In this document: positions 937 through 52,827 of the stretch, one piece after another | How the letters are laid out: every line of letters starts with the position of its first letter | Position numbering within the stretch: the first letter of the stretch is position 1 | Source of the DNA: an uncultured Flavobacteriales bacterium | Lineage (GTDB): Bacteria > Bacteroidota > Bacteroidia > Flavobacteriales_D > Crocinitomicaceae | NCBI GenBank assembly: GCA_905478665.1 | Contig: CAJQJL010000008.1 | Location: forward strand, 1-64,000 | DNA: 64,000 bases | Direction: 5' to 3' | The notes under the pieces: generated by a model | What the model saw: only the letters and a program-made list of their open reading frames with translations | Database searches by the model: none | What the model was told of the DNA's origin: nothing | Program-made: the position numbers and the translations under genes

Positions 937-1400
937 AAACGGTAACCACCATATTACTTTCTTGGATTGCATTCGGTGCTCTTTCACAAGAAAGAATAGA
1001 GATGAAATCAATTTCGCAATTAACTGCCGACACCTCACATTATAAAATTATTTTCATAAGTGCAGATTGGTGCAGAATATGTCCTAACGCTCAAAAGGCA
1101 GTTGAAAGCTCAGAAAAATTGGCAATCGCATTGGATGGAGCTATGCTATTCTACAAAATAGAAAACACTTACGAGCTTCCGATTGAGTATATGGATAGCA
1201 CATTTTATTATGTCCAAACTGGAATAAATGAAGGCTATCATCAATTGATAGATCACTTAATGAATAGTACTAAAGTTCAGTATCCCACATTTATCATGTT
1301 AGACAAAAACGACAAGGTCATGGACACCTTCCCAAGAATGTTAAGCGAACAAGACTGGCTTGAGGTTGCCGAAATATTTCATACCAGAATTAAAGGATAG
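933..1400 (+). CDS. Thioredoxin-like fold protein
   Basis: Signal peptide, ISADWCRICPNAQKA (WCxxC) motif; overlaps previous stop by 4 nt. Confidence 0.75.
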   Translation: MKTVTTILLSWIAFGALSQERIEMKSISQLTADTSHYKIIFISADWCRICPNAQKAVESSEKLAIALDGAMLFYKIENTYELPIEYMDSTFYYVQTGINEGYHQLIDHLMNSTKVQYPTFIMLDKNDKVMDTFPRMLSEQDWLEVAEIFHTRIKG

Positions 1401-1404
1401 ATTT

Positions 1405-2247
1405 CTAGTCAATCGCTGGAATAGTAAGCGAATCGATGACCACCGTATCCTTTGCTACAATTTTGAACCAGCGAGAATCTCCAGATTCAGAATCCAACAA
1501 TTGGTATTTATGTGAAGCCGTTATGCGGGACCAAGCATTGAAATGCCACCACTCACTCGGTATGTTGCTAAACTTTTGGGAACGCATTACCTTTCTTAAA
1601 AGCTTTCTGTTCTCGTATTGTTCTTTGGATAATTCACCCGTCTTTAAAAAGTATGCCTCCAGACTTGGGAATGCTATTCTCCGAAAATCATCATATCCAG
1701 CCCCCATGTCCAGCGGCTGTCCTTCTGCGTCAAGAATTGTCAAATCAACCGCCGCACCAAAATTATGTACACTTCCCAACGCTGGATTTGAAACAAATTT
1801 GCCCCTGTTCAATGGAGGAATTGAATCCAAGGCATCCCACATTTCTTTTTGTACCTGCACTGGACGAACTCCGTCATAGACGAGCAACCGATAACCTGAA
1901 TGCAAGGAATCTAAGAACTTTTGTGCCTTCGATAAGCGAATAGCGACATCTTCCTGTAAAAACAATTTTCTGAGCGTATCGTACAATTGATGTTTTGTGA
2001 AATTATCGTCCGTCGCATATTTCAAGTCCACGGAAATCTGATCATTCACCGTTCTAATATCGACCAAACCAATTGCTTTCATTCGAGCCGAAACAAGCGA
2101 ATCTAATGCCCGTCGCTCCAATTCCTCATGATTATCTACAACCTCTGGTTCAGGCAAATAAACTGCGTTATCAATTACAGGGTCAGATGCACATGCGAAC
2201 AGAAGAAGACAAATTGGAATTAACCATTTCATACACCAAAGAAACAA
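1405..2247 (-). CDS. D-alanyl-D-alanine dipeptidase (M15D, VanX/DdpX-like) lipoprotein
   Basis: Lipobox-like LLLFAC; VYDGVRP, SVHNFGAAVDLTI and SEWWHFNAW motifs of M15 dipeptidases. Confidence 0.85.
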   Translation of the reverse strand: MFLWCMKWLIPICLLLFACASDPVIDNAVYLPEPEVVDNHEELERRALDSLVSARMKAIGLVDIRTVNDQISVDLKYATDDNFTKHQLYDTLRKLFLQEDVAIRLSKAQKFLDSLHSGYRLLVYDGVRPVQVQKEMWDALDSIPPLNRGKFVSNPALGSVHNFGAAVDLTILDAEGQPLDMGAGYDDFRRIAFPSLEAYFLKTGELSKEQYENRKLLRKVMRSQKFSNIPSEWWHFNAWSRITASHKYQLLDSESGDSRWFKIVAKDTVVIDSLTIPAID

Positions 2248-2450
2248 AATCTTAAGGATTCACGTTTTAGACTGTTTTAGGATTCCTCCTTGTGCATTCA
2301 ATATATCTAAAAGGAGTTCTTTGAAATTACTACATTGTGCAATAAATTTGTTGAAAAACAAGGAATCATTAAATAGCTGATTTTCTCGTATTAAAATTGA
2401 CAATCGCTAAAATTTTCTGAGTAAATTCGTCCAAATTTATTTTATTAAAT

Positions 2451-3647
2451 ATGCCAACAATCTCTCGCAAGGCTGCCAAAATGCCTGAGTCACCGATTCG
2501 TAAATTGGTTCCATATGCTGAAAAAGCAAAGGCACAAGGAAAGACCGTTTATCACTTGAATATTGGTCAGCCAGACATTGAAACTCCTGCTGTTGCGTTG
2601 GAAGCAATAAAAAATATGGATCGAACGGTAATTGAATACAGTCATTCAGCTGGTTTTCAATCGTACCGCGATCGTCTTTCTGTCTACTACAAAGATGCTG
2701 GCATCAATGTGAATCCAGAAGACATCTTAGTAACCACAGGAGGTTCAGAAGCGTTGACATTTGGTTTTATGACTACGTGTGACCCAAATGATGAAGTAAT
2801 TATTCCAGAGCCGTTCTATGCAAACTACAACGGTTTTGCTGTTGCGGCAGGATTGAATGTTGTCCCAGTCACAGCCCACATTGAAGACGGGTTTGCCTTA
2901 CCTCCTATTGAAGAAATTGAGAAGAAGATTACGCCCAAAACAAAGGCAATTGTGATCTGTAACCCAGGAAACCCAACAGGATATTTGTATTCAAAGGAAG
3001 AACTGGAAAAACTAAGAGATATCGTTCTGAAGCACAACTTGTTTTTGTTTGCAGACGAAGTATATAGAGAGTTTTGCTACGATGGTGCCGAGCCATTTTC
3101 TGTAATGAATTTGGAAGGAATTGAGCAAAATGTGATCATGATTGATTCCGTTTCAAAGCGTTACTCCATGTGCGGTGCTCGAATTGGAGCAATTATTTCT
3201 AAGAACAAGGATGTAATGGCTTCTGCATTAAAATTTGGACAAGCACGCCTTTCTCCTCCAACCATTGACCAGATCGCTGCAGAGGCAGCTCTAGACACTC
3301 CACAATCGTATTTTGATGATGTAGTGACAGAATATGTGATCCGTAGAAATATTATGGTTGAGGGATTGAACAATATCCCAGGTGTATTCTGTCCAAAGCC
3401 TAGTGGTGCATTTTACTGCGTTGCCAAATTCCCTGTGGATAACGCTGAGAAATTTTGTCAATGGCTCTTGGAAGACTTTGATTATGAAGGTGCAACTGTA
3501 ATGATGGCTCCAGCGAGTGGATTCTACTCGTCTGAGGGGCAAGGAACCCAAGAAGCTCGAATTGCTTATGTACTGAACCAAAACGCGTTGAAAAGCGCTG
3601 TAAAGTGTCTAGAGGAAGCTTTAAAAGTCTACCCAGGAAGAATCTGA
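2451..3647 (+). CDS. Pyridoxal-phosphate aminotransferase class I/II (aspartate aminotransferase-like)
   Basis: NPGNPTGYLYSKEEL, SVSKRYSMCGARIG (PLP lysine) motifs. Confidence 0.9.
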   Translation: MPTISRKAAKMPESPIRKLVPYAEKAKAQGKTVYHLNIGQPDIETPAVALEAIKNMDRTVIEYSHSAGFQSYRDRLSVYYKDAGINVNPEDILVTTGGSEALTFGFMTTCDPNDEVIIPEPFYANYNGFAVAAGLNVVPVTAHIEDGFALPPIEEIEKKITPKTKAIVICNPGNPTGYLYSKEELEKLRDIVLKHNLFLFADEVYREFCYDGAEPFSVMNLEGIEQNVIMIDSVSKRYSMCGARIGAIISKNKDVMASALKFGQARLSPPTIDQIAAEAALDTPQSYFDDVVTEYVIRRNIMVEGLNNIPGVFCPKPSGAFYCVAKFPVDNAEKFCQWLLEDFDYEGATVMMAPASGFYSSEGQGTQEARIAYVLNQNALKSAVKCLEEALKVYPGRI

Positions 3648-3680
3648 ATTCAAGACTCTCATAAAAAAATATGAACCAAA

Positions 3681-3710
3681 AAAAGCCCTGATCCGAAGAT
3701 CAGGGCTTTT
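3681..3710. terminator. Rho-independent terminator, likely bidirectional
   Basis: AAAAGCCCTGATC-CGAA-GATCAGGGCTTTT between convergent genes. Confidence 0.9.
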
Positions 3711-3729
3711 CTTTATATCAATGGATTGA

Positions 3730-4566
3730 TTACTTAGTAACCATCATTTTCTTAGTTACAGATCCTTCTGCGAATGTTACATTAATCATGTAAACACCAG
3801 ATGAAAGACTGTTCATATCAACAATGTAAGAACCGTTATTAACCGCACCAGTAGAAACAGTTTGTCCACTTGTAGCGATAACAGTAACCATTCCGTTTGT
3901 CAAGTCACCATTAACTTTTACCAATACAGAGTTGTTTGGTTGGTTCACGAAGTGTACCAATTCTTCAACAGCAGCATCGTCAAGTCCAGCAGCTCCCATA
4001 TCACCAGCAGCGATACCAGTACCAGCAGTTGACTCATAAGCGTAATCTTTCATTGTCCAAATATCACCAATTGCGTCAACATCTAAACGTGCCCAACCGT
4101 AGTAAGTTGATCCACCGAAGTTGAATTGCAATGCCAAATACTTGTCAGTAACACCGTTCCAGTTCTCACTGTATGGGTTTGCACTGTCAACATTGTAAGC
4201 CATTGTGTTAGATGCAGCGATCCAGTTCAATGTATTATCAATCATGTCAGTTGCATTCAATGCCAATGCATAGTTGTATCCAGATGGAGTCTCACCAGCA
4301 ATTGCATTACCTGCAGTTCCGTAAGGTGCTACCCATGTAGTTCTAACTCTGTTTGCTCCACCGAAAATTGAATCAGCAGAATAGATTGCAAAGTCAAAAG
4401 TTGCATCGTTGTTCAAATCTAATCCAACAGCGATTTCATCACCAGCGTGTGTAAAATCAGGATCAACATCCGTGTAAACAACTTGTGCAGTTGCTCCAGA
4501 AGCAGTTACCAACGCAGCAGCGGCAGCAGAATACTTCATCATTTTGTTTTGTAATTCTTTATTCAT
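3730..4566 (-). CDS. Secreted protein with T9SS type A C-terminal sorting domain
   Basis: N-terminal signal; C-terminal LVKVNGDLTNGMVTVIATSGQ...LSSGVYMINVTFAEGSVTKKMMVTK. Confidence 0.8.
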   Translation of the reverse strand: MNKELQNKMMKYSAAAAALVTASGATAQVVYTDVDPDFTHAGDEIAVGLDLNNDATFDFAIYSADSIFGGANRVRTTWVAPYGTAGNAIAGETPSGYNYALALNATDMIDNTLNWIAASNTMAYNVDSANPYSENWNGVTDKYLALQFNFGGSTYYGWARLDVDAIGDIWTMKDYAYESTAGTGIAAGDMGAAGLDDAAVEELVHFVNQPNNSVLVKVNGDLTNGMVTVIATSGQTVSTGAVNNGSYIVDMNSLSSGVYMINVTFAEGSVTKKMMVTK

Positions 4567-4626
4567 AAAATTATAATTAAGTAGATTTCAGCGTAAAATT
4601 AGTGTTTTTTTAACGAATACTCAAAT

Positions 4627-7068
4627 CTATGATAGGTAGTGTGTAATCAGTTCATTATCAACTTCATCGGGTAAATTTATATAGAAAAGATCCAAATTCG
4701 GCTGTTGAGACAACCATGTCCTTGCACGCCGCTCCTGCTCTCGTACCCCATCCATCAGATCGGGATTAAAGGTTTCCTTCCCTGGCCATTCCTTTTCCAC
4801 AAGGTGTCTCATAACGTCTTCTGAGTCATCATTTACAAACATTATACGGTACGAAAATTTAGGCGGTAAACTACCCAAAACCCGCAATGGAATGTAATTA
4901 ATTTTTTGTCCGAGATCTGCAAACCAATTGGGATTAAGAACATCTACAGTATCACCTAGAAGGTCGTTTATGTCTCCACCGATTTCAATTCCTTTGTCCT
5001 TAATTTTTTGCAAAGTCTCTTCAAGTTTTTCTCCAGGCAAACCAGTAACGACAATCTTTTCTCCTAAATCGTAGTGATCGACAATCTTTCTGTAACGATC
5101 ACTCTTCTCCTCATCACCAACGATTTCATATAAATCGAGTAACCATCTGTACGTTTTTGGCATTTGTGGAGCAATTGCTGCTACTACCTCAAATGATTCG
5201 ATTGCTGCCTCGTAATTTTTCATCAAGGCGAATGTTTCTCCCAAATGGAAATGTGCAAAAGGATAATAATAGACGCTCTCTACAGCATCAAGGAAATAAC
5301 CGAGCGCATCTTCATACCTCTCTGTTCTCAACGCCGCAACTCCCAAACCATGCAAACCGTAGGAATTTCCTGGATCCAAATCTACCACGCGTTGGAAGAT
5401 CTTAACTGCATCATCATATTCACAGACAGTGTTCAACAACCGGCCAAAGTCGAGCAGTACATCAATAGCGTCAGGGAAATGTTGAATTGCATCTTTGAGC
5501 AAGCGCATTGTTTTATCTGGCTCATTCAAACCTAATTGCACTTTCGCCTCCAACACATTCACGTAATTCTCCTCCATAAGGTTTCCCTTGCGGATGAAGC
5601 GAATATATTCATTTGCCAGTGCAAAACGATTGGTTTTCACTGCGCATCCTACGATTTCCAATAAAATTCGAAAATCAGGTTTATCTCTATTTTCTATCTC
5701 TAACAAGATCTCAAGCGCTTCCTCGTGATACCCTCCATTCACGTAAGATTTCGCTAGATAGAAATTGTTCTCATTAATCACGTTCTTTAGGTAATTGGCT
5801 GCGTCCTTCTCTGGATCACCGTCTACCTTCATATCATTAATGTATCCAAGGTCAACCAATTGCTGAAGCGCAGCTGCATTTGTTCCGTCATCAGGTACTG
5901 ATTTCACAACCAATTCGCCTCCGAACTTATCAACCTTCTCCCAACTATCTATGTATTGAACCTCTTTTGGGTTTTCATAAATTTCCATCAATGGCTTTCC
6001 GTGCATGTCACGACCTACTGGCATATCAAACAAAGTCAACAATGTTGGTGTAATATCCAGAATACTCGCTCCGAAAATATGCTCACCTTTCTTAATTCCA
6101 GGTCCCATAGCCACAAAGACTCCAAACGGTGCATGTTCAACCGCTGGACCAGAAGGAACCTCTGGTACGTGCGTAGGTCGAAGATGGTCCGAGTGAAAAC
6201 CATGGTCCGAAGCAATTACAACAGTCGTGTCGTCATCAATCATACCTAGCAAACGCTCTAACATCATATCATGGAAAACGTATGCACCAAGAACCACATC
6301 TTTAAAAAGGTCAAAGGCTTCGTCATCCATCCCCTCCATTTGTGGTGGATGAAATTTCATAAATGCATGGCAGAAATGGTCAATTGCATCGTGATAAACT
6401 GCAGTAAAATCCCATTCTTCTGTTTCCATCAATTCTGTAGTAGCAGCATGTATACTCGATGCATGCGCTAAAAAACGCTGAATAACTGTGAGACGTTTAT
6501 CTCCTTTCTTGTCCAGTTTAACTGCCTGAGGCACAAAAGGCATCACAAGGTTTCCAGTTATTTCATTCGGATGAACACGCAATTCTTTCAATCGTTCTAT
6601 GAGTCGCTCAGGGTAAATCGTCCCTTCTGGAATATCCCAATCATCAATATCGACTGTTTCTTTCCCTTTCTTCTCTTGCTGAAAAAGATTCGAGACCATA
6701 CACCCGTTAATATTCTCGACAGGATTACTTGGCCACCATCCTACTACATTTGACTTATGGCCTTCCATCGTCAGCATGTTCCAAATCGCTTTTACCTTTC
6801 GTGAATGTGAAGACACTGGGCGAACTCCTCCGCTCCCATCGTGTTCAACAAATCCAAGAACACCGTGTTCAAACGGTCGAACCCCAGTCGCCATGGAAGT
6901 CCAAAGCATTGGAGATAAAGGTGGATCAAGTGTTGCTAACTGACCACGAACGCCATTATCAACAACCTTTTTCATGGCAGGCATCAAACCACTCGCCATG
7001 AGCTTGTCCATAATTTTCCAATCGGCGGCATCCCAACCAATGAAGAGTACTTTATTTTTTTTCGCCAT
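4627..7068 (-). CDS. Alkaline phosphatase-superfamily phosphodiesterase/nucleotide pyrophosphatase with TPR region
   Basis: LFIGWDAADWKIMDKL.. N-terminal metal motif, DHFCHAFMKFHP, IASDHGFHSDH; TPR-like repeats in the second half. Confidence 0.85.
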   Translation of the reverse strand: MAKKNKVLFIGWDAADWKIMDKLMASGLMPAMKKVVDNGVRGQLATLDPPLSPMLWTSMATGVRPFEHGVLGFVEHDGSGGVRPVSSHSRKVKAIWNMLTMEGHKSNVVGWWPSNPVENINGCMVSNLFQQEKKGKETVDIDDWDIPEGTIYPERLIERLKELRVHPNEITGNLVMPFVPQAVKLDKKGDKRLTVIQRFLAHASSIHAATTELMETEEWDFTAVYHDAIDHFCHAFMKFHPPQMEGMDDEAFDLFKDVVLGAYVFHDMMLERLLGMIDDDTTVVIASDHGFHSDHLRPTHVPEVPSGPAVEHAPFGVFVAMGPGIKKGEHIFGASILDITPTLLTLFDMPVGRDMHGKPLMEIYENPKEVQYIDSWEKVDKFGGELVVKSVPDDGTNAAALQQLVDLGYINDMKVDGDPEKDAANYLKNVINENNFYLAKSYVNGGYHEEALEILLEIENRDKPDFRILLEIVGCAVKTNRFALANEYIRFIRKGNLMEENYVNVLEAKVQLGLNEPDKTMRLLKDAIQHFPDAIDVLLDFGRLLNTVCEYDDAVKIFQRVVDLDPGNSYGLHGLGVAALRTERYEDALGYFLDAVESVYYYPFAHFHLGETFALMKNYEAAIESFEVVAAIAPQMPKTYRWLLDLYEIVGDEEKSDRYRKIVDHYDLGEKIVVTGLPGEKLEETLQKIKDKGIEIGGDINDLLGDTVDVLNPNWFADLGQKINYIPLRVLGSLPPKFSYRIMFVNDDSEDVMRHLVEKEWPGKETFNPDLMDGVREQERRARTWLSQQPNLDLFYINLPDEVDNELITHYLS

Positions 7069-44952: not shown

Positions 44953-47292
44953 ATGAAAATTCGGTTTTTTGTTAGTAGTCTATTTATTTGTGGTTCGTTC
45001 ATCGGGCATTCTCAGGTCGTTTCGTATGAGCATAATAAGTCTTCCGTTCAACGCGTTGTTGTTTCTCAACCAGCAACTGTTATTGGTGACACACTAGAAC
45101 GAACCAATATTGCCAGTGAGTCGAAGAAAGAGCCAACAGTTTTGCCTGATCCAAATAGCCTCCCTGTTCCTCCTGCAAATAAAACTGTACTGGAAAACGA
45201 AAGAACGATGGATCTTCCAGATACAACTTCCAATTTCTCTCCAGCTCCATCAGCATCTTTTCAGGCATTGGGAGACAACAATGCACAGATTCCTCCAGAC
45301 ACACACGGCGCTGCAAGTGCCAATTACCTAATGACGACCTTAAATACTGAAATAAGGATTCAAAATAAAACGGGCACTGTACTTTCTACCCAATCACTGA
45401 GCAGCTTTTGGTCGAATTTCAGCTTTTCAACAATATTTGACCCCCGCGTTCATTACGATTCTTATTCGAACCGTTGGGTTACTGTCGTTTGCATTGACAA
45501 GAACTCTGCGAACTCGGCAATCTTAGTTGCAGTTTCGACCACTTCAAATCCTACGGGGACGTGGATGCAATGGAAAATTGATGCAGATGCTTCAAACTTG
45601 AATTGGGTTGACTACCCTACTGTTGGAATTAATAATCGATGGATTGTTGTTTCAACAAACATGTTTTCTAACTCCGTAAATGCTTGGGCAGGACCACAGA
45701 TTTTTGTGTTGGACAAACTCAACTTTTACAGCAATGGAGTTGGGAACTATTCATCCATTTACCCAGGCACGAATGTCGGAAACACTTTCGCTCCCGCGGC
45801 AACCTATGACAATTCAATTTCGACGATGTTTCTCGTTCAAAATTACAATGGAAACTCCAGTGGTTTAGGCTATCTTGGTTTGTCGAAAATTAATGGATCA
45901 ACGAGTGCTCCTTCGCTTAATTTACTCTATTCATATCCCTCAACATCAAGTACGTGGAATTGGAGTGCTGGAGCAGCAGATTTTGCGCCACAATTGGGCT
46001 CTGTGCAGAAATTCCAAAATAACGATGCAAAAATGCAAAATGTGGTCTATCGAAACGGGAGTCTTTGGTGTACACATCACATATTCTTGCCTACAACTGG
46101 GACTACGCATACAGCCGTGCAATGGTGGCAACTTGACACGCTGGGATCAATAACGCAGCGCGGTCGAATTGAAGATGTTAGTGGAACGAATTATTATGCT
46201 TTTCCTTCCATTGCTGTTAACGCCAACAATAATGTACTGATTGGCTATAGTAGTTTTTCTTCTTCGCAGTATGCGAGTGGTGAATATTCCTATCGATCTG
46301 CCAATGATCCACTGAACACCATGCAATCTTCCTATCAATACATTGCTGGTCAGGCTCCCTATTACAAAACACACACAGGATCGACCAACAGATGGGGCGA
46401 TTATTCAGCGACTGTAGTTGATCCAAGCAATGATATTGACTTCTGGACAATCCAAGAATATGCAGCTCAACCCGTGTCTAATATTGACCGCTGGGGAACC
46501 TATTGGGCGAATGTGCAATGCCCTGTCCCGTCGGCACCTACGCAAGTTACCTGGTCAATGCCACATTGTGAAGGTTCTGTAGCGACCTATACGGCGGCAA
46601 CTGTTCCTTCAGCAACAAGTTATACATGGACAATTCAAAATAGCCCACCTGGATGGTCTGGGGGAACAAGTACAACGAACGTAGCGAATTTTACGGCTGG
46701 ATCTTTCCCTGCTTACATTGACGTCACTGCAAATAACAGTTGTGGATCAAGCACGCCTTACGGATTTTGGAGTAATCCAGTTCCACTGCCTTTATCGACA
46801 TTTACAGCAGTTCCAACAACGACATCGATTGGTGTGCCAATAACTATTACCGCAGACGAGACAAACGCTAGTGTGAATTTTAATTGGAATTTTGACAGCG
46901 GAAATGCAGTGCCGGGAATTGGGCAAGGACCGCATAACGTCGATTGGTCGACATCAGGACAAAAAAATGTGTCATTGCTTACCTCGTTCAATGGTTGTAA
47001 TGCCGTTCAAACAACGCAGATGATAACTGTTAATCCTTTTATTGGACTGGATGAACACGCTCCATTCAATTTTCAAGCCTACCCAAATCCATTTAGTGAG
47101 TCCTTAACAGTTGTTTTTAATGATGACGCCTTCAGTCTAAAGCTGTATGATCTGATGGGCAAAGAAGTGCTCACTGAAAATCATCCAACATCACCACTAG
47201 AAATCGACACACGTCTCTTGGCGCAAGGGCAATATTTATTGCAGTTAACAGGGAGAAATTCTGTGATGGTTGTGAGGGTTGTTAAGGAGTGA
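44953..47292 (+). CDS. Large secreted protein with T9SS type A sorting domain
   Basis: Signal peptide; PKD-like segments; C-terminal FQAYPNPFSESLTVVFNDDAFSLKLYDLMGKEVL...LAQGQYLLQLTG. Confidence 0.85.
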   Translation: MKIRFFVSSLFICGSFIGHSQVVSYEHNKSSVQRVVVSQPATVIGDTLERTNIASESKKEPTVLPDPNSLPVPPANKTVLENERTMDLPDTTSNFSPAPSASFQALGDNNAQIPPDTHGAASANYLMTTLNTEIRIQNKTGTVLSTQSLSSFWSNFSFSTIFDPRVHYDSYSNRWVTVVCIDKNSANSAILVAVSTTSNPTGTWMQWKIDADASNLNWVDYPTVGINNRWIVVSTNMFSNSVNAWAGPQIFVLDKLNFYSNGVGNYSSIYPGTNVGNTFAPAATYDNSISTMFLVQNYNGNSSGLGYLGLSKINGSTSAPSLNLLYSYPSTSSTWNWSAGAADFAPQLGSVQKFQNNDAKMQNVVYRNGSLWCTHHIFLPTTGTTHTAVQWWQLDTLGSITQRGRIEDVSGTNYYAFPSIAVNANNNVLIGYSSFSSSQYASGEYSYRSANDPLNTMQSSYQYIAGQAPYYKTHTGSTNRWGDYSATVVDPSNDIDFWTIQEYAAQPVSNIDRWGTYWANVQCPVPSAPTQVTWSMPHCEGSVATYTAATVPSATSYTWTIQNSPPGWSGGTSTTNVANFTAGSFPAYIDVTANNSCGSSTPYGFWSNPVPLPLSTFTAVPTTTSIGVPITITADETNASVNFNWNFDSGNAVPGIGQGPHNVDWSTSGQKNVSLLTSFNGCNAVQTTQMITVNPFIGLDEHAPFNFQAYPNPFSESLTVVFNDDAFSLKLYDLMGKEVLTENHPTSPLEIDTRLLAQGQYLLQLTGRNSVMVVRVVKE

Positions 47293-47344
47293 ATGGGGGA
47301 ATTAATTTGTGTGGGGCAGGGTTTCGTTGGGGGGATGGTTGTAG

Positions 47345-47399
47345 CTGTAACGGTTCATTCTATTCGGTCGTTTTAATGCCGCTTATACATTTGTTAGCA
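47345..47399 (-). repeat. Candidate short attC-like site ending cassette 3
   Basis: TGCTAAC 4 bp after the TAG of 47403-47966, complementary to that cassette's 5' GTTAGCA; weak internal stem CGGCATT/AATG-aa-CCG; other end GTTACAG uncertain. Confidence 0.4.
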
Positions 47400-47402
47400 T
47401 TT

Positions 47403-47966
47403 CTACTTAATTTTTGCGTATTTCCTCCAAGTGTATTCGGTGTTTCCTGCTGCCATTATCAAAATCATGCCGGCTCTGCACTCGCCTTTTGTAACAACAA
47501 CTTCTGTTTCTGTAAAACTTAAAACAGTAATTCGTGCATAGTAGTTGAACCAAATACAGGGTATTCCTATGGGTCTAACCAGTCGTGACATGACGAACGA
47601 ACTATCTTTCCATTTACCACTGATATTGCGGGTGTATACTAGGCTATCTCCATCATAAGCTTCTACCAATATTTTTTTATCCAATCTCGTTAAATTAACT
47701 TTTAGATTTGACCAGATGTCGATAGTCTTCTTAGATAAGGGGCGGTGAGTAATTTGCTGTAACAAGGAATTATAAAATGTTGAATCAGTTGAATTATTTA
47801 GGTATTCACCACTTGTAAAATAGTGCGGTACATGAGCAGGTATGGTTTTTATTGTTTGCCGAGATGAAACACAACTCGAAATTAAAGAAAGCAATAATAG
47901 CAGGATGATTATGTGTTTGTAACTCTTCATTCTGACCAACGTTTTTTTCAAATGTTTAATTGTCAA
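47403..47966 (-). CDS. Hypothetical lipoprotein (cassette 3 cargo)
   Basis: Signal with LISSCVSS lipobox; 187 aa. Confidence 0.6.
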   Translation of the reverse strand: MTIKHLKKTLVRMKSYKHIIILLLLLSLISSCVSSRQTIKTIPAHVPHYFTSGEYLNNSTDSTFYNSLLQQITHRPLSKKTIDIWSNLKVNLTRLDKKILVEAYDGDSLVYTRNISGKWKDSSFVMSRLVRPIGIPCIWFNYYARITVLSFTETEVVVTKGECRAGMILIMAAGNTEYTWRKYAKIK

Positions 47967-47979
47967 TGTTTTACAATTT

Positions 47980-48078
47980 AGTAATTCTCTCGAAAATCAA
48001 CTTCCTTAAAGTTAGCCCTTGGAAGTCAGTTTCACTTCGTGGCTGCTGCGCGGTCTCTCGGAGACAGGGAGAATTACT
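47980..48078. repeat. 99-bp imperfect inverted-repeat leader at the start of cassette 3
   Basis: AGTAATTCTCTC / GGGAGAATTACT arms (11/12), nested AACTTCC/GGAAGT; abuts the attC core GCTAAC at 48079. Confidence 0.45.
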
Positions 48079-48277
48079 GCTAACGCTTAATCTATGTTTT
48101 TGTAGGGCGATTTAAAAGTACAATTTTTCGTTTACCTAATTAGCCAAAACTTTGGCTTTGGGGTTTAACTTTTTCTGCTGATAAATGCCAAAACAAAGTT
48201 TTGGCGGTGTTTATTAATTGCTGCTTTGTTTCAATTTACTATCAACTGCCCTATAAAATATAGATGTTGTTGTGCAT
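48079..48277 (-). repeat. Large attC-like recombination site A (~199 bp)
   Basis: Cores GCTAAC...GTTGTGCAT; arms ATCTAT..TTT..TAGGGC / GCCCTA..AAA..ATAGAT; internal GCCAAA..TTTGGCGGTGTT. Confidence 0.65.
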
Positions 48278-48279
48278 AG

Positions 48280-49347
48280 TTATTGATTAATTAGTTTCTT
48301 TAAATGACGATGTCTGTCAAATCTATTAGCTTTTTGCCTTGTTCCTTCTTTAACTAATGACTTGTAATTATAAATATCAGATATTAATTCCGGATAATAC
48401 TGTACTAAAAGTTCCTCATTGTCATAGTTGTCTATGAAATTTCTGTAATTCGAAATTTGTTTATCAGTTAAACTTTCTTGGCTGTTTAAAAAGTCAAAAA
48501 CAACGGTGAAAAGTGTGTAAAAGTGAACTTGTCTTTTTAGTATTTTAATTCGCTCGTTATTTCCATCAATTATTGAATTGATTACATTTAAAATAACTAT
48601 AAATTTATCTTTATCACTTTCTCTGTTAGGGTAATCATCATTGTATAAATCGTATATCTGATTCAAATTCGAATTCCCTATATCTTCTTCAATTCCTTTT
48701 TTTAGAAAAACTAATAAAGTACTTACAAATGAGACATCTCTCATTCTTCTTCTATCAGCAATACCAAAAAGTTTGTTTTCTTCCCAAAAGTCAAGTTCTG
48801 CTAGTTCTGATGAAATTAGCATAAATTCTCCTTCGAATTCAGCATTTCTCAATTCTTGAGGATTTAATGTCATGTTATTACTATTCAGTCGAAGAAACAT
48901 ATTTACAATAGAAATCCTTTCTACTTGGCTTCTAACTAATCTCACAGAGAAAACATATGACCAAATTGCTTTTTTGTCATCAGGCTCTAAATCCTTAAAT
49001 AATCTATCTTGAATAGTAGATTTTTTAGGATTGTTTGGATCTAAACTTGCTGCTTTTAATTTATATGTGTTAGCAATATATTGGAATACAGCTCCACATC
49101 GTTGTTGTCCATCAATTATAGAATATTTAGTGTCTCCAGTATTTTCATCTGTTCCGGTATTCCATAGATATATTTCTGGAATAGGATAACCAATCAATAT
49201 TGATTCTATTAATTGAATTTGGTTTTTTTCAGTCCAAACATAATTTCTTTGGAATGAATTATCAACTTCTAATAATCCTTTTTGGCTTAAATCATAAAGC
49301 CATTTTGCCGTTTGGGGCTGAATATCTATTTGTTCAATTAATTTCAT
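48280..49347 (-). CDS. DUF262 domain-containing protein
   Basis: KYSIIDGQQRCGAVFQYI (DGQQR motif), N-terminal FQRNYVWTEKNQIQLIESILIGYPIPEIYLW; no obvious DUF1524 HNH. Confidence 0.85.
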   Translation of the reverse strand: MKLIEQIDIQPQTAKWLYDLSQKGLLEVDNSFQRNYVWTEKNQIQLIESILIGYPIPEIYLWNTGTDENTGDTKYSIIDGQQRCGAVFQYIANTYKLKAASLDPNNPKKSTIQDRLFKDLEPDDKKAIWSYVFSVRLVRSQVERISIVNMFLRLNSNNMTLNPQELRNAEFEGEFMLISSELAELDFWEENKLFGIADRRRMRDVSFVSTLLVFLKKGIEEDIGNSNLNQIYDLYNDDYPNRESDKDKFIVILNVINSIIDGNNERIKILKRQVHFYTLFTVVFDFLNSQESLTDKQISNYRNFIDNYDNEELLVQYYPELISDIYNYKSLVKEGTRQKANRFDRHRHLKKLINQ

Positions 49348-49924
49348 TGATAATATTTTTTAATTTTGTTATTCCTTTTAGATGATATTCTTCAACTGAT
49401 TCCCAGTCAGTATATATCCTGTAATTTATGTCGTGCTGTATATTAAATGTTAATTGAAGTTCAGCTTTAAACGAAAGCACTTTTTTTTGCCAATTTTCAA
49501 GGGTTTCATTCCCATAAGTTTTGTCATCATCTTTAATGCTTATAAAGCCGCTAAAAATATTTCCACATTTCTGTCCATATTTTTCTAGGTATTGACCTTG
49601 GGATACTTCTTTGTATGCAGACCATATATCATAAAAAAGCTTCCTTGAAACAATGATTAAATCAAAATCTGATTTATCGTGGAATTCTGCCAAATTCTTT
49701 GATGGAGAAAAGCTAAACCTTGTTTTAGCACTGCCGACAATTGATATGTTATTAAAAGGGATATTGAGTTTTTTAGAAATGAATTTTTTAAATGAATCAT
49801 AGTCAGAACTAAAATCATCTCCATTGTTTTTAAAATACCAGACTTCTTGTCCAAGTAGATATTCATAATAAATATCTAATTCAGATTTTGAGTTTATTTT
49901 ATGGATTAAATTTTCTTTGTTCAT
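49334..49924 (-). CDS. Nucleotidyltransferase-like protein
   Basis: ISIVGSAKTRFSF...FHDKSDFDLIIVS resembles GS..DxD NTase motif; overlaps DUF262 gene by 14 nt. Confidence 0.55.
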   Translation of the reverse strand: MNKENLIHKINSKSELDIYYEYLLGQEVWYFKNNGDDFSSDYDSFKKFISKKLNIPFNNISIVGSAKTRFSFSPSKNLAEFHDKSDFDLIIVSRKLFYDIWSAYKEVSQGQYLEKYGQKCGNIFSGFISIKDDDKTYGNETLENWQKKVLSFKAELQLTFNIQHDINYRIYTDWESVEEYHLKGITKLKNIINEIN

Positions 49925-49934
49925 TTTTAATTAT

Positions 49935-50129
49935 GCACAACGTTTAGTATATGGCAAGTAGGGCAGTAGAAAGTGATAAATTTTCAACTTTGCACTGAGC
50001 CAAAGTGTTGTATTTTGTTTTTAACTTATTCATTTTAAAAGCCAAATCAATGATTTGGCGGTATTGGTAAATAGCTCTGAACTTTCCTTAACTACCGAAC
50101 GCCCTATTTGTTATATACAGTGTTAGGTG
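49935..50129 (-). repeat. Large attC-like recombination site B (~195 bp)
   Basis: Cores GCACAAC...GTTAGGTG; arms GTATAT-gg-CAA-g-TAGGGC / GCCCTA-t-TTG-tt-ATATAC; internal GCCAAA..TTTGGCGGTATT. Confidence 0.7.
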
Positions 50130-50650
50130 TTTTTTTCTTTAATTAGTGTATATACTTTTGCTAATTGATTATCTTCAATAATCTCTTTTTCATATTTGAA
50201 ATTGAGCTTTTCGAGAACATGAATTGAACCTGTGTTTTCTGGAAGAACCATTGCAATCATTTTTTTTAATTCAAGTTTGTTAAATCCAAGATCCACACAG
50301 GCTTTTCCAGATTCAGTAGCAATTCCTTTTCCCCAATATTCTTTCATAAACCTATATCCAAGATCCACTTCGTCCATATCATCTAGATATTTTAGACCTG
50401 TAAATCCAATAAATTTATTTTCTCCTTTTAATTCAACTGCAAGTCGCCCAAATCCGTATTTTTCGTAATCTCCAAATACATTCTCGACAATCCTTCGTTC
50501 AATTTCTTTTTTGGATACAATCCCTCCGTCTCCTGTGTATTTACTAACTTCTGCATCTAAATTCATTGTGTAGGATGGCTCTATGTCTTCCATTTTAAAT
50601 GGTCGAATTAATAGTCTTTCAGTTTCAATAAATAAATTCGAATTAGTCAT
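50123..50650 (-). CDS. GNAT N-acetyltransferase (RimJ/RimL-like), cassette 1 cargo
   Basis: FIETERLLIRPFKMEDIE, DLGYRFMKEYWGKGIATESG; stop codon lies inside core CACCTAAC. Confidence 0.85.
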   Translation of the reverse strand: MTNSNLFIETERLLIRPFKMEDIEPSYTMNLDAEVSKYTGDGGIVSKKEIERRIVENVFGDYEKYGFGRLAVELKGENKFIGFTGLKYLDDMDEVDLGYRFMKEYWGKGIATESGKACVDLGFNKLELKKMIAMVLPENTGSIHVLEKLNFKYEKEIIEDNQLAKVYTLIKEKNT

Positions 50651-50933
50651 TTATTAGTTTTTTAAATTGCACCTAACAACTGAATATAGTGCACAAATGC
50701 ACCATATCTAAAATCTATATAAATACGCACCTCTCTTACATCCCCCATTAACAAAGCTCCTAAACGATATTTACCATTTATAAGCAATTGTCAAGCAGAC
50801 ACAGGCACGCCGGCCCAAGATACAGACTCTCATATCTTCCATCAAGCGTATAAATACCTGTTTTTCAGAATATTTTAGTCAGCTATTCTTGTTCTAATTG
50901 GAAATTGTACACGCTAATGCTTTACAGACGTCG

Positions 50934-51299
50934 TTATTTATCTTCCTTAACCTTCAATCGAGTTTTTGAAATAAGATCATGCCCTCCTTGTTCTTGTCCA
51001 AATAGGTATGAAAACCCATCAAACGGGTACAATCGCAGTATCGTTCGATACAGTACTTTCCGAAGGCTAGGTTTTGAGTTCTGCATGTCAACAACGATGG
51101 TCTTTGTAATCATTTTGCCAGGTGTCTGCCCCAAGAAATATTCAAAAAAGAAATAGTAAACAAGGAACACGGAATAATAGACCAGTACAGGACTCACTAA
51201 GAAGAAAAGGATGGCCTTTGGAATACTCGCAATTAAACTAATAATTGCAACATCAATTAGGTAGTTTATGATTCTGGTTCCTTTACTAATCTCCTTCAT
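50934..51299 (-). CDS. RDD family membrane protein
   Basis: GTRIINYLIDVAIISLI, FEYFLGQTPGKMITKTIVVD. Confidence 0.85.
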   Translation of the reverse strand: MKEISKGTRIINYLIDVAIISLIASIPKAILFFLVSPVLVYYSVFLVYYFFFEYFLGQTPGKMITKTIVVDMQNSKPSLRKVLYRTILRLYPFDGFSYLFGQEQGGHDLISKTRLKVKEDK

Positions 51300-51444
51300 T
51301 TAATCGATGGTGGTTTCGGTGGTCGTTTACGTCACATAGGGATCTAGAATGCACTATAAGTTTTGTTGTAAGCCGTTTTTTAATCTGAATGGGTTTCCAT
51401 CTTGTATGTGCTGATAACTCACGTAGACCTCAACAAAATAACAA

Positions 51445-51476
51445 AAATCCCCCGATGCCTAAACAAAGGGGGATTT
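51445..51476 (-). terminator. Rho-independent terminator
   Basis: AAATCCCCC...GGGGGATTT hairpin downstream of the minus-strand gene 51511-52224. Confidence 0.75.
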
Positions 51477-51510
51477 CGTTGCGCTCCAATCTTGGATGTA
51501 AGCTTATCGC

Positions 51511-52224
51511 CTACGCTTCTCCATCATCGGGCTCCTCGGGTGTTAAGCCAGCATCATCACCGCTTCCGGAATGGTGTCCGCCGTAGTCAACTACGATGCG
51601 TGCATCCATGTAATTTCCGTGAAAAGTGCGATGTGTGTCTTCCATTAGGTTTACCAAGGTGTCCAGTTTGTCTTTCAACAATGAGTCGAGCTCAGTTGCC
51701 AATCGATTAATGGATCGGGTGATTTCCTTACGCTTCACAATCGCATCTCGCGGAGCTGCCATCAAGGCTTTGAACTCGTCTCGCAATGCCTCTGCGGCTT
51801 GAATTCGCGCTTCTGAAATTCCGTAGTCTTCCAGGTCATTCGCAAACTCATTCGCACTTTCCAGCACAAACTCAACGATTTCCATGGCCTTGATTTCAGA
51901 TTTTAACTCAAGAGTAGTGCGGTTGACATTTAAACGTTGGCGTAAGATTATCAAGCCCTTGTCCATTGTCATCGCACGAAGTCCTTGAGCCAATTTGAGA
52001 ATCTCGATCGTCAATTTTCTACGAACGGCTCTTTTCTTTGAATAGATTCCTTCCGTTGAAAATGACTGCGATTTGCCGAGTGAAATCAATTGCGCTAACT
52101 TTTCTGAAAATGCCGCGTAGGCAGTTGCAAATGCTGGTAACGCACTCCAGCTTTCCTGGTTTCCGGATATGGTCGATTTTACGGCCTTGTACATCCGAAT
52201 CCTGTTTTGAATTGATCTTTTCAT
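51511..52224 (-). CDS. Hypothetical, mostly alpha-helical protein
   Basis: Intact 237 aa ORF with terminator; acidic C-terminal tail GGHHSGSGDDAGLTPEEPDDGEA. Confidence 0.6.
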   Translation of the reverse strand: MKRSIQNRIRMYKAVKSTISGNQESWSALPAFATAYAAFSEKLAQLISLGKSQSFSTEGIYSKKRAVRRKLTIEILKLAQGLRAMTMDKGLIILRQRLNVNRTTLELKSEIKAMEIVEFVLESANEFANDLEDYGISEARIQAAEALRDEFKALMAAPRDAIVKRKEITRSINRLATELDSLLKDKLDTLVNLMEDTHRTFHGNYMDARIVVDYGGHHSGSGDDAGLTPEEPDDGEA

Positions 52225-52415
52225 AACAAAAGATTTAGTGTCTGATCATCGTCTCTACCTCGTGCAGATTCGACACACAAACGTTATGCACACATAAAAA
52301 CCAACACCGTGCCAAAAATGGTTTTGGCCGCGTTAAAAAATGTTAAGACCTACTAGCGAAAGGTGTTTGAAATAGAAAGAGCAAATGTGTAAAAGGCGAA
52401 AAACTGAAATTTCAC

Positions 52416-52730
52416 GGCAACAGATTTTATTTTCATGGCATAAAATTGTTCGTTCACTGCTCCGGATTTTCATTCCAAGGCAGCAGATTTTGTTTTCACA
52501 GCATAAAATTGTTCGTTCACTGCTCCAGATTTTCATTCCAAGGCAGCAGATTTTGTTTTCACAGCATAAAATTGTTCGTTCACTGCTCCGGATTTTCATT
52601 CCAAGGCAGCAGATTTTGTTTTCATGGCATAAAATTGTTCGTTCACTGCTCCAGATTTTCATTCCAAGGCAGCAGATTTTGTTTTCACAGCATAAAATTG
52701 TTTGTTCACTGCTCCAGATTTTCATTTCAA
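52416..52730. repeat. Tandem repeat, five full 63-bp units plus a partial sixth
   Basis: Units start at 52416, 52479, 52542, 52605, 52668; consensus GGCAGCAGATTTTGTTTTCACAGCATAAAATTGTTCGTTCACTGCTCCAGATTTTCATTCCAA. Confidence 0.97.
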
Positions 52731-52827
52731 GGCATGCTATTCTGCCCCACTCTCCTATTAAACTGACACCATTCAAAGAATAAAGAAGTATCTTTCGGAA
52801 CACAATCGCCTATAAACAGCTGTAACA

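Follow-up and report, generated by a model that had tools for sequence, protein, structure and literature searches.

How do genes come to lie in tandem between matched inverted cores where no integrase gene is at hand? Among the natural systems known to gather and reshuffle genes, integrons are the main one. We address this question for the window, i.e., the whole analysed stretch of 64,000 nucleotides from an uncultured Flavobacteriales bacterium (Crocinitomicaceae; GenBank assembly GCA_905478665.1, contig CAJQJL010000008.1, positions 1 to 64,000), which lies on contig C8 of a metagenome-assembled genome (MAG; G000 in our set) that is 89% complete. A first-pass annotation had proposed an integron-like array of three cassettes without an integrase at positions 47,345 to 50,677. 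Cassette architecture, matched cores, an attI site, a linked recombinase, and one cassette, carrying a DUF262 gene, in varied contexts are all observed in the genomes compared. From these we conclude that the window very probably contains an orphan array of cassettes, part of an integron-like system that is Bacteroidota-wide and uses an integrase of its own; the array is read as orphan because the assembly yielded no recombinase of the array-linked type (class A, below). The proposal of an integron-like array lacking an integrase is backed by homologous arrays in other genomes. The assignment to integrons in the classical sense did not hold, since the recombinase of the relatives lacks the IntI insert and belongs to another clade, and since the sites follow other rules.

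Each unit on the minus strand begins with a GTT core (R') that is complementary to a core at its own end (R''). All six cores were confirmed by direct sequence check, on the minus strand: GTTAGGTG (50670–50677) and CACCTAAC (50122–50129) for the GNAT unit, a pair of 8 bp; GTTGTGCAT (49933–49941) and ATGCACAAC (48269–48277) for the DUF262 unit; and GTTAGCA (48078–48084) and TGCTAAC (47393–47399) for the lipoprotein unit, a pair of 7 bp. The DUF262 pair matches exactly over 10 bp (GTTGTGCATA), followed by one mismatch and then three further matches. The features of the array are as follows.

50678..50710, minus strand: attI-like site tagatatggtgcatttgtgcactatattcagtt, directly before the first GTT; an imperfect palindrome centred 18.5 nt before GTT
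50668..50677, minus strand: R' core of cassette 1, GTTAGGTGCA, then ATT; fits the R' consensus GTTRKNNNNMATT from ~90 cassettes
50123..50650, minus strand: GNAT acetyltransferase gene of cassette 1 (Pfam Acetyltransf_3, 2e-28)
49932..50131, minus strand: attC-like site 1 (200 nt), R'' AACACCTAAC ... R' GTTGTGCATA; palindromic arms, homologues elsewhere
49334..49924, minus strand: nucleotidyltransferase-like gene, first of cassette 2 (open reading frame; GS...DFD motif)
48280..49347, minus strand: DUF262/GmrSD_N gene, second of cassette 2 (Pfam GmrSD_N, 5e-25)
48084..49940, minus strand: cassette 2, the entire putative mobile unit (predicted cut G^TT); similarity limits in Mesonia phycicola and Winogradskyella
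48075..48278, minus strand: attC-like site 2 (204 nt), R'' TATGCACAAC ... R' GTTAGCAGTA; R'' matches the R' at 49932–49941 over 10 bp; arm score 26
47403..47930, minus strand: lipoprotein gene of cassette 3 (open reading frame, lipobox-like start)
47349..47402, minus strand: possible terminal decayed site, R'' AAATGCTAAC to GTT at 47351; 7-bp core match only

The GNAT unit and the nucleotidyltransferase plus DUF262 unit are clearly cassettes. The lipoprotein unit has a good start core and a weak end, its terminal site being unconfirmed. Both inter-cassette regions (200 and 204 nt) are imperfect palindromes, and the bottom strand of attC-like site 2 folds with z = −2.4. The two attC-like sites lie 1.9 kb apart, in an assembly where we found neither an array-type integrase nor IntI. 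The nucleotidyltransferase-like gene, missing from the first-pass description of the DUF262 unit, matches no Pfam family, and its putative function is read from the GS...DFD motif; the lipoprotein gene likewise matches no Pfam family. The DUF262 gene overlaps the nucleotidyltransferase-like gene, and cassette 2 has PADLOC matches to NsnA (1e-37) and PD-T4-2_A (1.6e-19). From these matches, the DUF262 gene likely has a role in phage defence.

Cassette 2 recurs well beyond the window. The gene pair is present in seven further loci, with 83% DNA identity in Mesonia phycicola over 48253–49951, 79% in Winogradskyella over 48276–49936, and 68–73% over shorter stretches in additional loci. The similarity ends at or near the cores, as expected from the proposal that cassette boundaries in relatives would fall there; this is seen for the DUF262 unit in Mesonia and Winogradskyella. 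In Mesonia, three consecutive cassettes have 10-bp matches, the third being the DUF262 cassette of the window with the same core, GTTGTGCATA. A 5.5-kb Flavobacterium aquicola locus has seven near-identical palindromic sites, with the DUF262 unit genes inside the array; the cores differ from cassette to cassette, and each cassette's own R' and R'' match over 9–10 bp in five of six consecutive cassettes, the sixth matching over 5 bp. The site itself is also shared: attC-like site 1 (~200 nt) has homologues in 28 of 388 sampled Bacteroidia genomes (26 genera, up to 94% identity) and in 13 of 34 genomes of the window's genus, and it occurs at 86% identity on a Persicobacter psychrovividus plasmid. 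Strong matches typically begin at the R'' AAC and end at the R' GTT. Because it recurs across Bacteroidia genera and families with these AAC-to-GTT limits, we regard attC-like site 1 as a real mobile site.

A strict cassette detector, requiring two palindromic arms plus a core match of at least 8 bp, made no calls in 174 kb of shuffled DNA. Among the window's three units it passes the DUF262 unit only; the GNAT (8 bp) and lipoprotein (7 bp) pairs each fail it when taken alone. A relaxed version (core match of at least 7 bp) made one clear false call in the window (+43868). Cassette totals, from ~90 to 104, are approximate because they include a few nested or false calls (nested calls are present in locus L229). 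The script for arms and core took the place of a covariance model, which was not built because the palindromes made MAFFT misalign sites of different types. An Rfam scan of three array loci matched no family. The genome sets were even draws rather than a census.

The sites obey a rule of their own. In 93 distinct cassettes, chosen for at least 9 matching bases, position 11 matches in none (R' is A in 98%, the complement of R'' is G in 78%), whereas positions 12 and 13 match in ~85%, and A follows R'' in every case. The C preceding GTT was imposed by the detector; the mismatch at position 11 and the A after R'' were not. The overall Bacteroidia match at positions 8–13 is 96, 91, 62, 2, 83, and 81%. 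By contrast, IntI arrays run through the same pipeline (32 cassettes from 20 Gammaproteobacteria loci) match over 7–8 bp and then fall to chance level, with 38% at both position 9 and position 11. The median site length is 138 nt in Bacteroidia versus ~85 nt in IntI arrays. Complementarity of R' and R'' within a cassette and AACA...CGTT cores are present, and the bases after GTTR are loosely restricted to R/Y. The R stem carries an asymmetric mismatch. Within arrays, an R'' and the R' next to it come from two different cassettes, and their pairing is poor past GTTR. GTTRN6A cores, the mismatch at position 11, and a palindrome ~45 bp after the integrase gene are signatures that would allow genome-wide detection.

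A recombinase profile search revealed that a tyrosine recombinase of ~380 aa lies just upstream of arrays. Relatives were chosen by protein similarity only, and the DNA downstream of each was then run through the cassette detector. Same-strand cassettes were found in 10 of 15 class A loci (49–100% identity, at least 2.5 kb downstream), with 10 cassettes in G038 (a complete genome), 7 in G255, ~6 each in G088, G405, and G281, 5 in G373, 3 in G340, and fewer in the others. Four loci of more distant, class B recombinases (L252, L253, L255, and L261) also have cassettes; none was found at four control loci of XerC/D type. Several draft contigs stop 80–200 bp past the recombinase, as would be expected at a repeat. 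A match to the recombinase at 1e-35 occurs in 206 of 388 Bacteroidia genomes, a figure that takes in unvalidated relatives.

The protein is related to IntI but distinct from it. The catalytic R, K, H-R, H, and Y are invariant across 16 recombinases. The best score is to NCBIfam NF040815 (XerA-like; 230–238 bits), and the IntI model TIGR02249 scores 184–228 bits, in two pieces and below its cut-off of 265. The spacing from KDR to HxLRH is 58–60 residues, versus 100–106 in 32 IntI proteins and 59–66 in Xer, i.e., the IntI insert is lacking. The catalytic arginine is at ~233, versus ~140 in IntI, which amounts to ~95 extra N-terminal residues; a Pfam scan of this N-terminal domain in class A gave no match, and one class B member has a DUF5710 match there (30 bits). 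In the tree, IntI (100/100), class A (100/98), and XerC/D-type proteins (100/100) each form a single clade, class B does not, and IntI and the Bacteroidota recombinases together are set apart from Xer (100/100). On account of the sub-cut-off score, the missing insert, and the separate clade, the Bacteroidota system is not an IntI integron by the usual definition, even though it would operate in the manner of one.

Between recombinase and array lies an attI-like site. It is a palindrome 3' of the recombinase stop codon, often perfect over arms of 11–17 bp and centred 16–19 nt before GTT; the first GTT is mostly 42–54 nt past the stop codon in most intact loci. In 18 of 19 testable loci, this first GTT core has a matching R'' (at least 9 bp, then A) downstream, usually at 0.4–1.8 kb and once at 3.3 kb. 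Control positions had a matching R'' in 45 of 380 cases, a rate that is too high because true cores are among the controls. In the window, the sequence preceding the GNAT core is tagatATGGTGCAtttgTGCACTATattcagtt followed directly by GTT; its palindrome is weaker than those next to integrases, and the spacing is equal. We take this candidate attI-like site as supportive, not conclusive. It is moderate evidence against the suggestion that this could be the distal part of a longer array, which we consider improbable given that the palindrome stands directly before the GNAT cassette with the spacing found in integrase-bearing loci.

We infer from these patterns that the recombinase does the cutting, that it cuts G^TT, that its substrate is the folded single strand, and that polarity is set by the mismatch. 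An intact locus consists of the ~380-aa recombinase gene, the palindromic attI ~45 bp downstream, and up to 10 tandem cassettes on the same strand; every cassette comprises a palindromic site and either a single gene or an operon. As long as the circle is free, R'' (N7AAC) and R' (GTTN7) would be matched over 10 bp with the fixed mismatch at position 11. The recombinase would join the folded circular cassette to attI at G^TT, making it the new first cassette, with R' kept on the attI side; insertion would thereby split the site, leaving R' at the front of the cassette and R'' at its back. Since neighbouring R'' and R' come from different cassettes, matched pairs would exist only in the free circle. 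That most cassettes have retained matched cores suggests selection on how the site folds in the circle. In attC, extrahelical bases mark the strand (PMC2727003), and the fixed mismatch could do the same here. The I2 helix of IntI is described as the element docking those bases (PMC7790495), and the extra N-terminal domain is a candidate for standing in for it. In the window, the attI-like site and three cassettes would be what remains, the integrase being gone or in unassembled DNA, and the cassettes could still move given an integrase in trans.

Could a classical integron have left this array? A cluster of attC sites lacking an integron integrase (CALIN), i.e., IntI-captured cassettes left without their integrase, would share the core logic (AACA/CGTT and R'–R'' complementarity), and the DUF262 pair does occur in two gammaproteobacterial MAGs that bear IntI. 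Nevertheless, IntI exceeds its cut-off in only 1 of 289 Bacteroidia genomes versus 109 of 274 gammaproteobacterial genomes, the site rules differ (10 bp plus a mismatch at position 11 versus 7–8 bp; 138 versus ~85 nt), and the Bacteroidia arrays are linked to another recombinase. We consider such a remnant unlikely. Less likely still is movement of site-flanked genes by XerC/D, either as pdif-like modules or by hitchhiking on dif. NF040815 does class the array-linked recombinase as XerA-like, and XerC/D, being universal, could act on orphan arrays. However, dif is a fixed sequence at one chromosomal place, while the sites here are long, variable, multiple palindromes with cassette-specific cores; XerC/D-type loci have no arrays, and the tree sets XerC/D apart from the clade that unites array-linked recombinases and IntI (100/100).

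Finally, GTT/AAC matches might arise by chance near stop codons in AT-rich DNA, beside unrelated intergenic palindromes. The lipoprotein (7 bp) and GNAT (8 bp) pairs are indeed weak when considered alone. Set against this are the zero strict calls in shuffled DNA, the ~90 cassettes in related genomes, and the DUF262 cassette similarity that ends at or near cores in Mesonia and Winogradskyella, which refutes coincidence for that unit; chance is the most improbable of these explanations. We reject all three.

Several points weigh against an orphan array of the Bacteroidota system. The evidence throughout is comparative sequence analysis. The palindrome score of the window's attI-like site is equalled at 17 of 1840 R'-like positions in shuffled DNA (~1%), which is weak. 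The third site is unsupported, with 47349–47402 folding no better than shuffles (z = +0.35). The bottom strand is more stable at 55 of 93 sites (p = 0.03), a marginal excess. The RDD gene next to the array is not conserved within the genus, so the search through this neighbour yielded no empty site in relatives. Lastly, the search of the window's own assembly for an integrase, as the first-pass annotation had advised, found no class A recombinase, the best match being Xer-like at 38% identity. Given the incompleteness of the MAG and the breaking of contigs at such loci, the genome may still carry one. The genome does hold further sites: a second array on contig C65 (8995–11869) has two cassettes with 10-bp core matches and encodes lipoprotein-like proteins.

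How does this system compare with known ones? Like classical integrons, among them the sedentary chromosomal ones of Vibrio and Xanthomonas, it has an integrase beside attI, tandem cassettes in one orientation, palindromic AAC...GTT sites, cassette-specific R'/R'' complementarity, and, as in Flavobacterium aquicola, homogeneous sites within one array. Unlike them, its integrase lacks the IntI insert, has ~95 extra N-terminal residues, and shares its strand with the cassettes; its attI is a near-perfect palindrome, and its cores match over 10 bp, after which position 11 is mismatched almost without exception. The window cassettes resemble a CALIN, for which the definition asks for two or more attC sites within 4 kb and no integrase, in having no integrase nearby but differ in the non-classical type of their attC-like sites and in the retention of an attI-like site. 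XerA-like or "integron-like" simple tyrosine recombinases (NF040815; PMC8138268) share the catalytic residues and are defined by protein sequence only; we found no association of them with cassette arrays or a palindromic attI in that literature. The integron-like subgroup of that classification, in which the insert is not fully conserved, may include relatives of the array-linked integrase (PMC8138268). We think it probable that Bacteroidota have a second, IntI-independent cassette-capture system, characterized by an I2-less integrase clade, a palindromic attI, and a 10-bp, mismatch-marked stem, and having common ancestry with IntI.

Earlier surveys give little hint of such a system. IntegronFinder 2.0 reported one complete integron in Bacteroidetes proper, in Salinibacter ruber, with only In0 elements before (PMC9024848). 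A survey of attC by taxon covered 11 taxa, Bacteroidetes not among them (PMC8352920), and a paper on archaeal integrons mentions Bacteroidota integrons in passing (PMC9668308). An integron-like system with its own integrase across class Bacteroidia is apparently undescribed; we found no description in the open literature, and an earlier one may exist in preprints or in the subscription papers that mostly lay outside our search. Such a system, spanning Bacteroidia families, would be a large unrecorded mobile gene pool, in which likely phage-defence genes are represented by the DUF262 pair, among others. The system is also relevant to the chicken-and-egg paradox of whether I2 or attC could be selected first (PMC4792948). 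If our interpretation is correct, cassette recombination at hairpin sites needs no I2 and may predate it; because attC-like sites accompany a related integrase without I2, the order of events is open to experiment.

Several side observations concern where these cassettes occur. A contig of 5567 bp (C19) in G021, another species-level MAG of the same genus, is 100% identical to window positions 46535–52101 and is likely shared or mis-binned; the G021 assembly carries a class A recombinase (60% identical) on a different contig. The nucleotidyltransferase plus DUF262 pair also occurs outside Bacteroidota at 67–70% DNA identity, in two Gammaproteobacteria MAGs (L011 and L012) and on a Pseudoalteromonas plasmid (L402). 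Both MAGs bear true IntI and, in L011, GTTATGGC/GCCATAAC cores flank the two genes, which may therefore move between both cassette systems.

Five IMG/VR contigs of 70–208 kb (L325, at 1269–7046; L326; L328; L331; and L337) have arrays that follow the same core rules (10 bp, mismatch at position 11). These arrays adjoin, and diverge from, a short recombinase of ~270–300 aa that lacks the N-terminal domain. The cassette genes of L325, which encode DNA methyltransferases, are oriented against the sites, like a reversed integron. These contigs may be phage or mis-sorted bacterial DNA. On a Chondrinema litorale plasmid (NZ_CP111070.1, 6870–10600), the recombinase WP_284690009.1 is followed by an attI-like palindrome and then a GNAT cassette, the R'' region of which holds a group II intron (RF02001) on the bottom strand, recalling the group IIC-attC introns of classical integrons.

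Two further features lie in the window itself. A long hairpin at 47990–48080 (GTAATTCTC...GAGAATTAC), which separates the start of the lipoprotein gene from the R' core, is possibly regulatory or a small inserted element. At 52333–52803, a repeat unit holds long open reading frames of 156 aa on the minus strand and 132 aa on the plus strand; the peptide is repetitive, and the region is probably non-coding repeat DNA.

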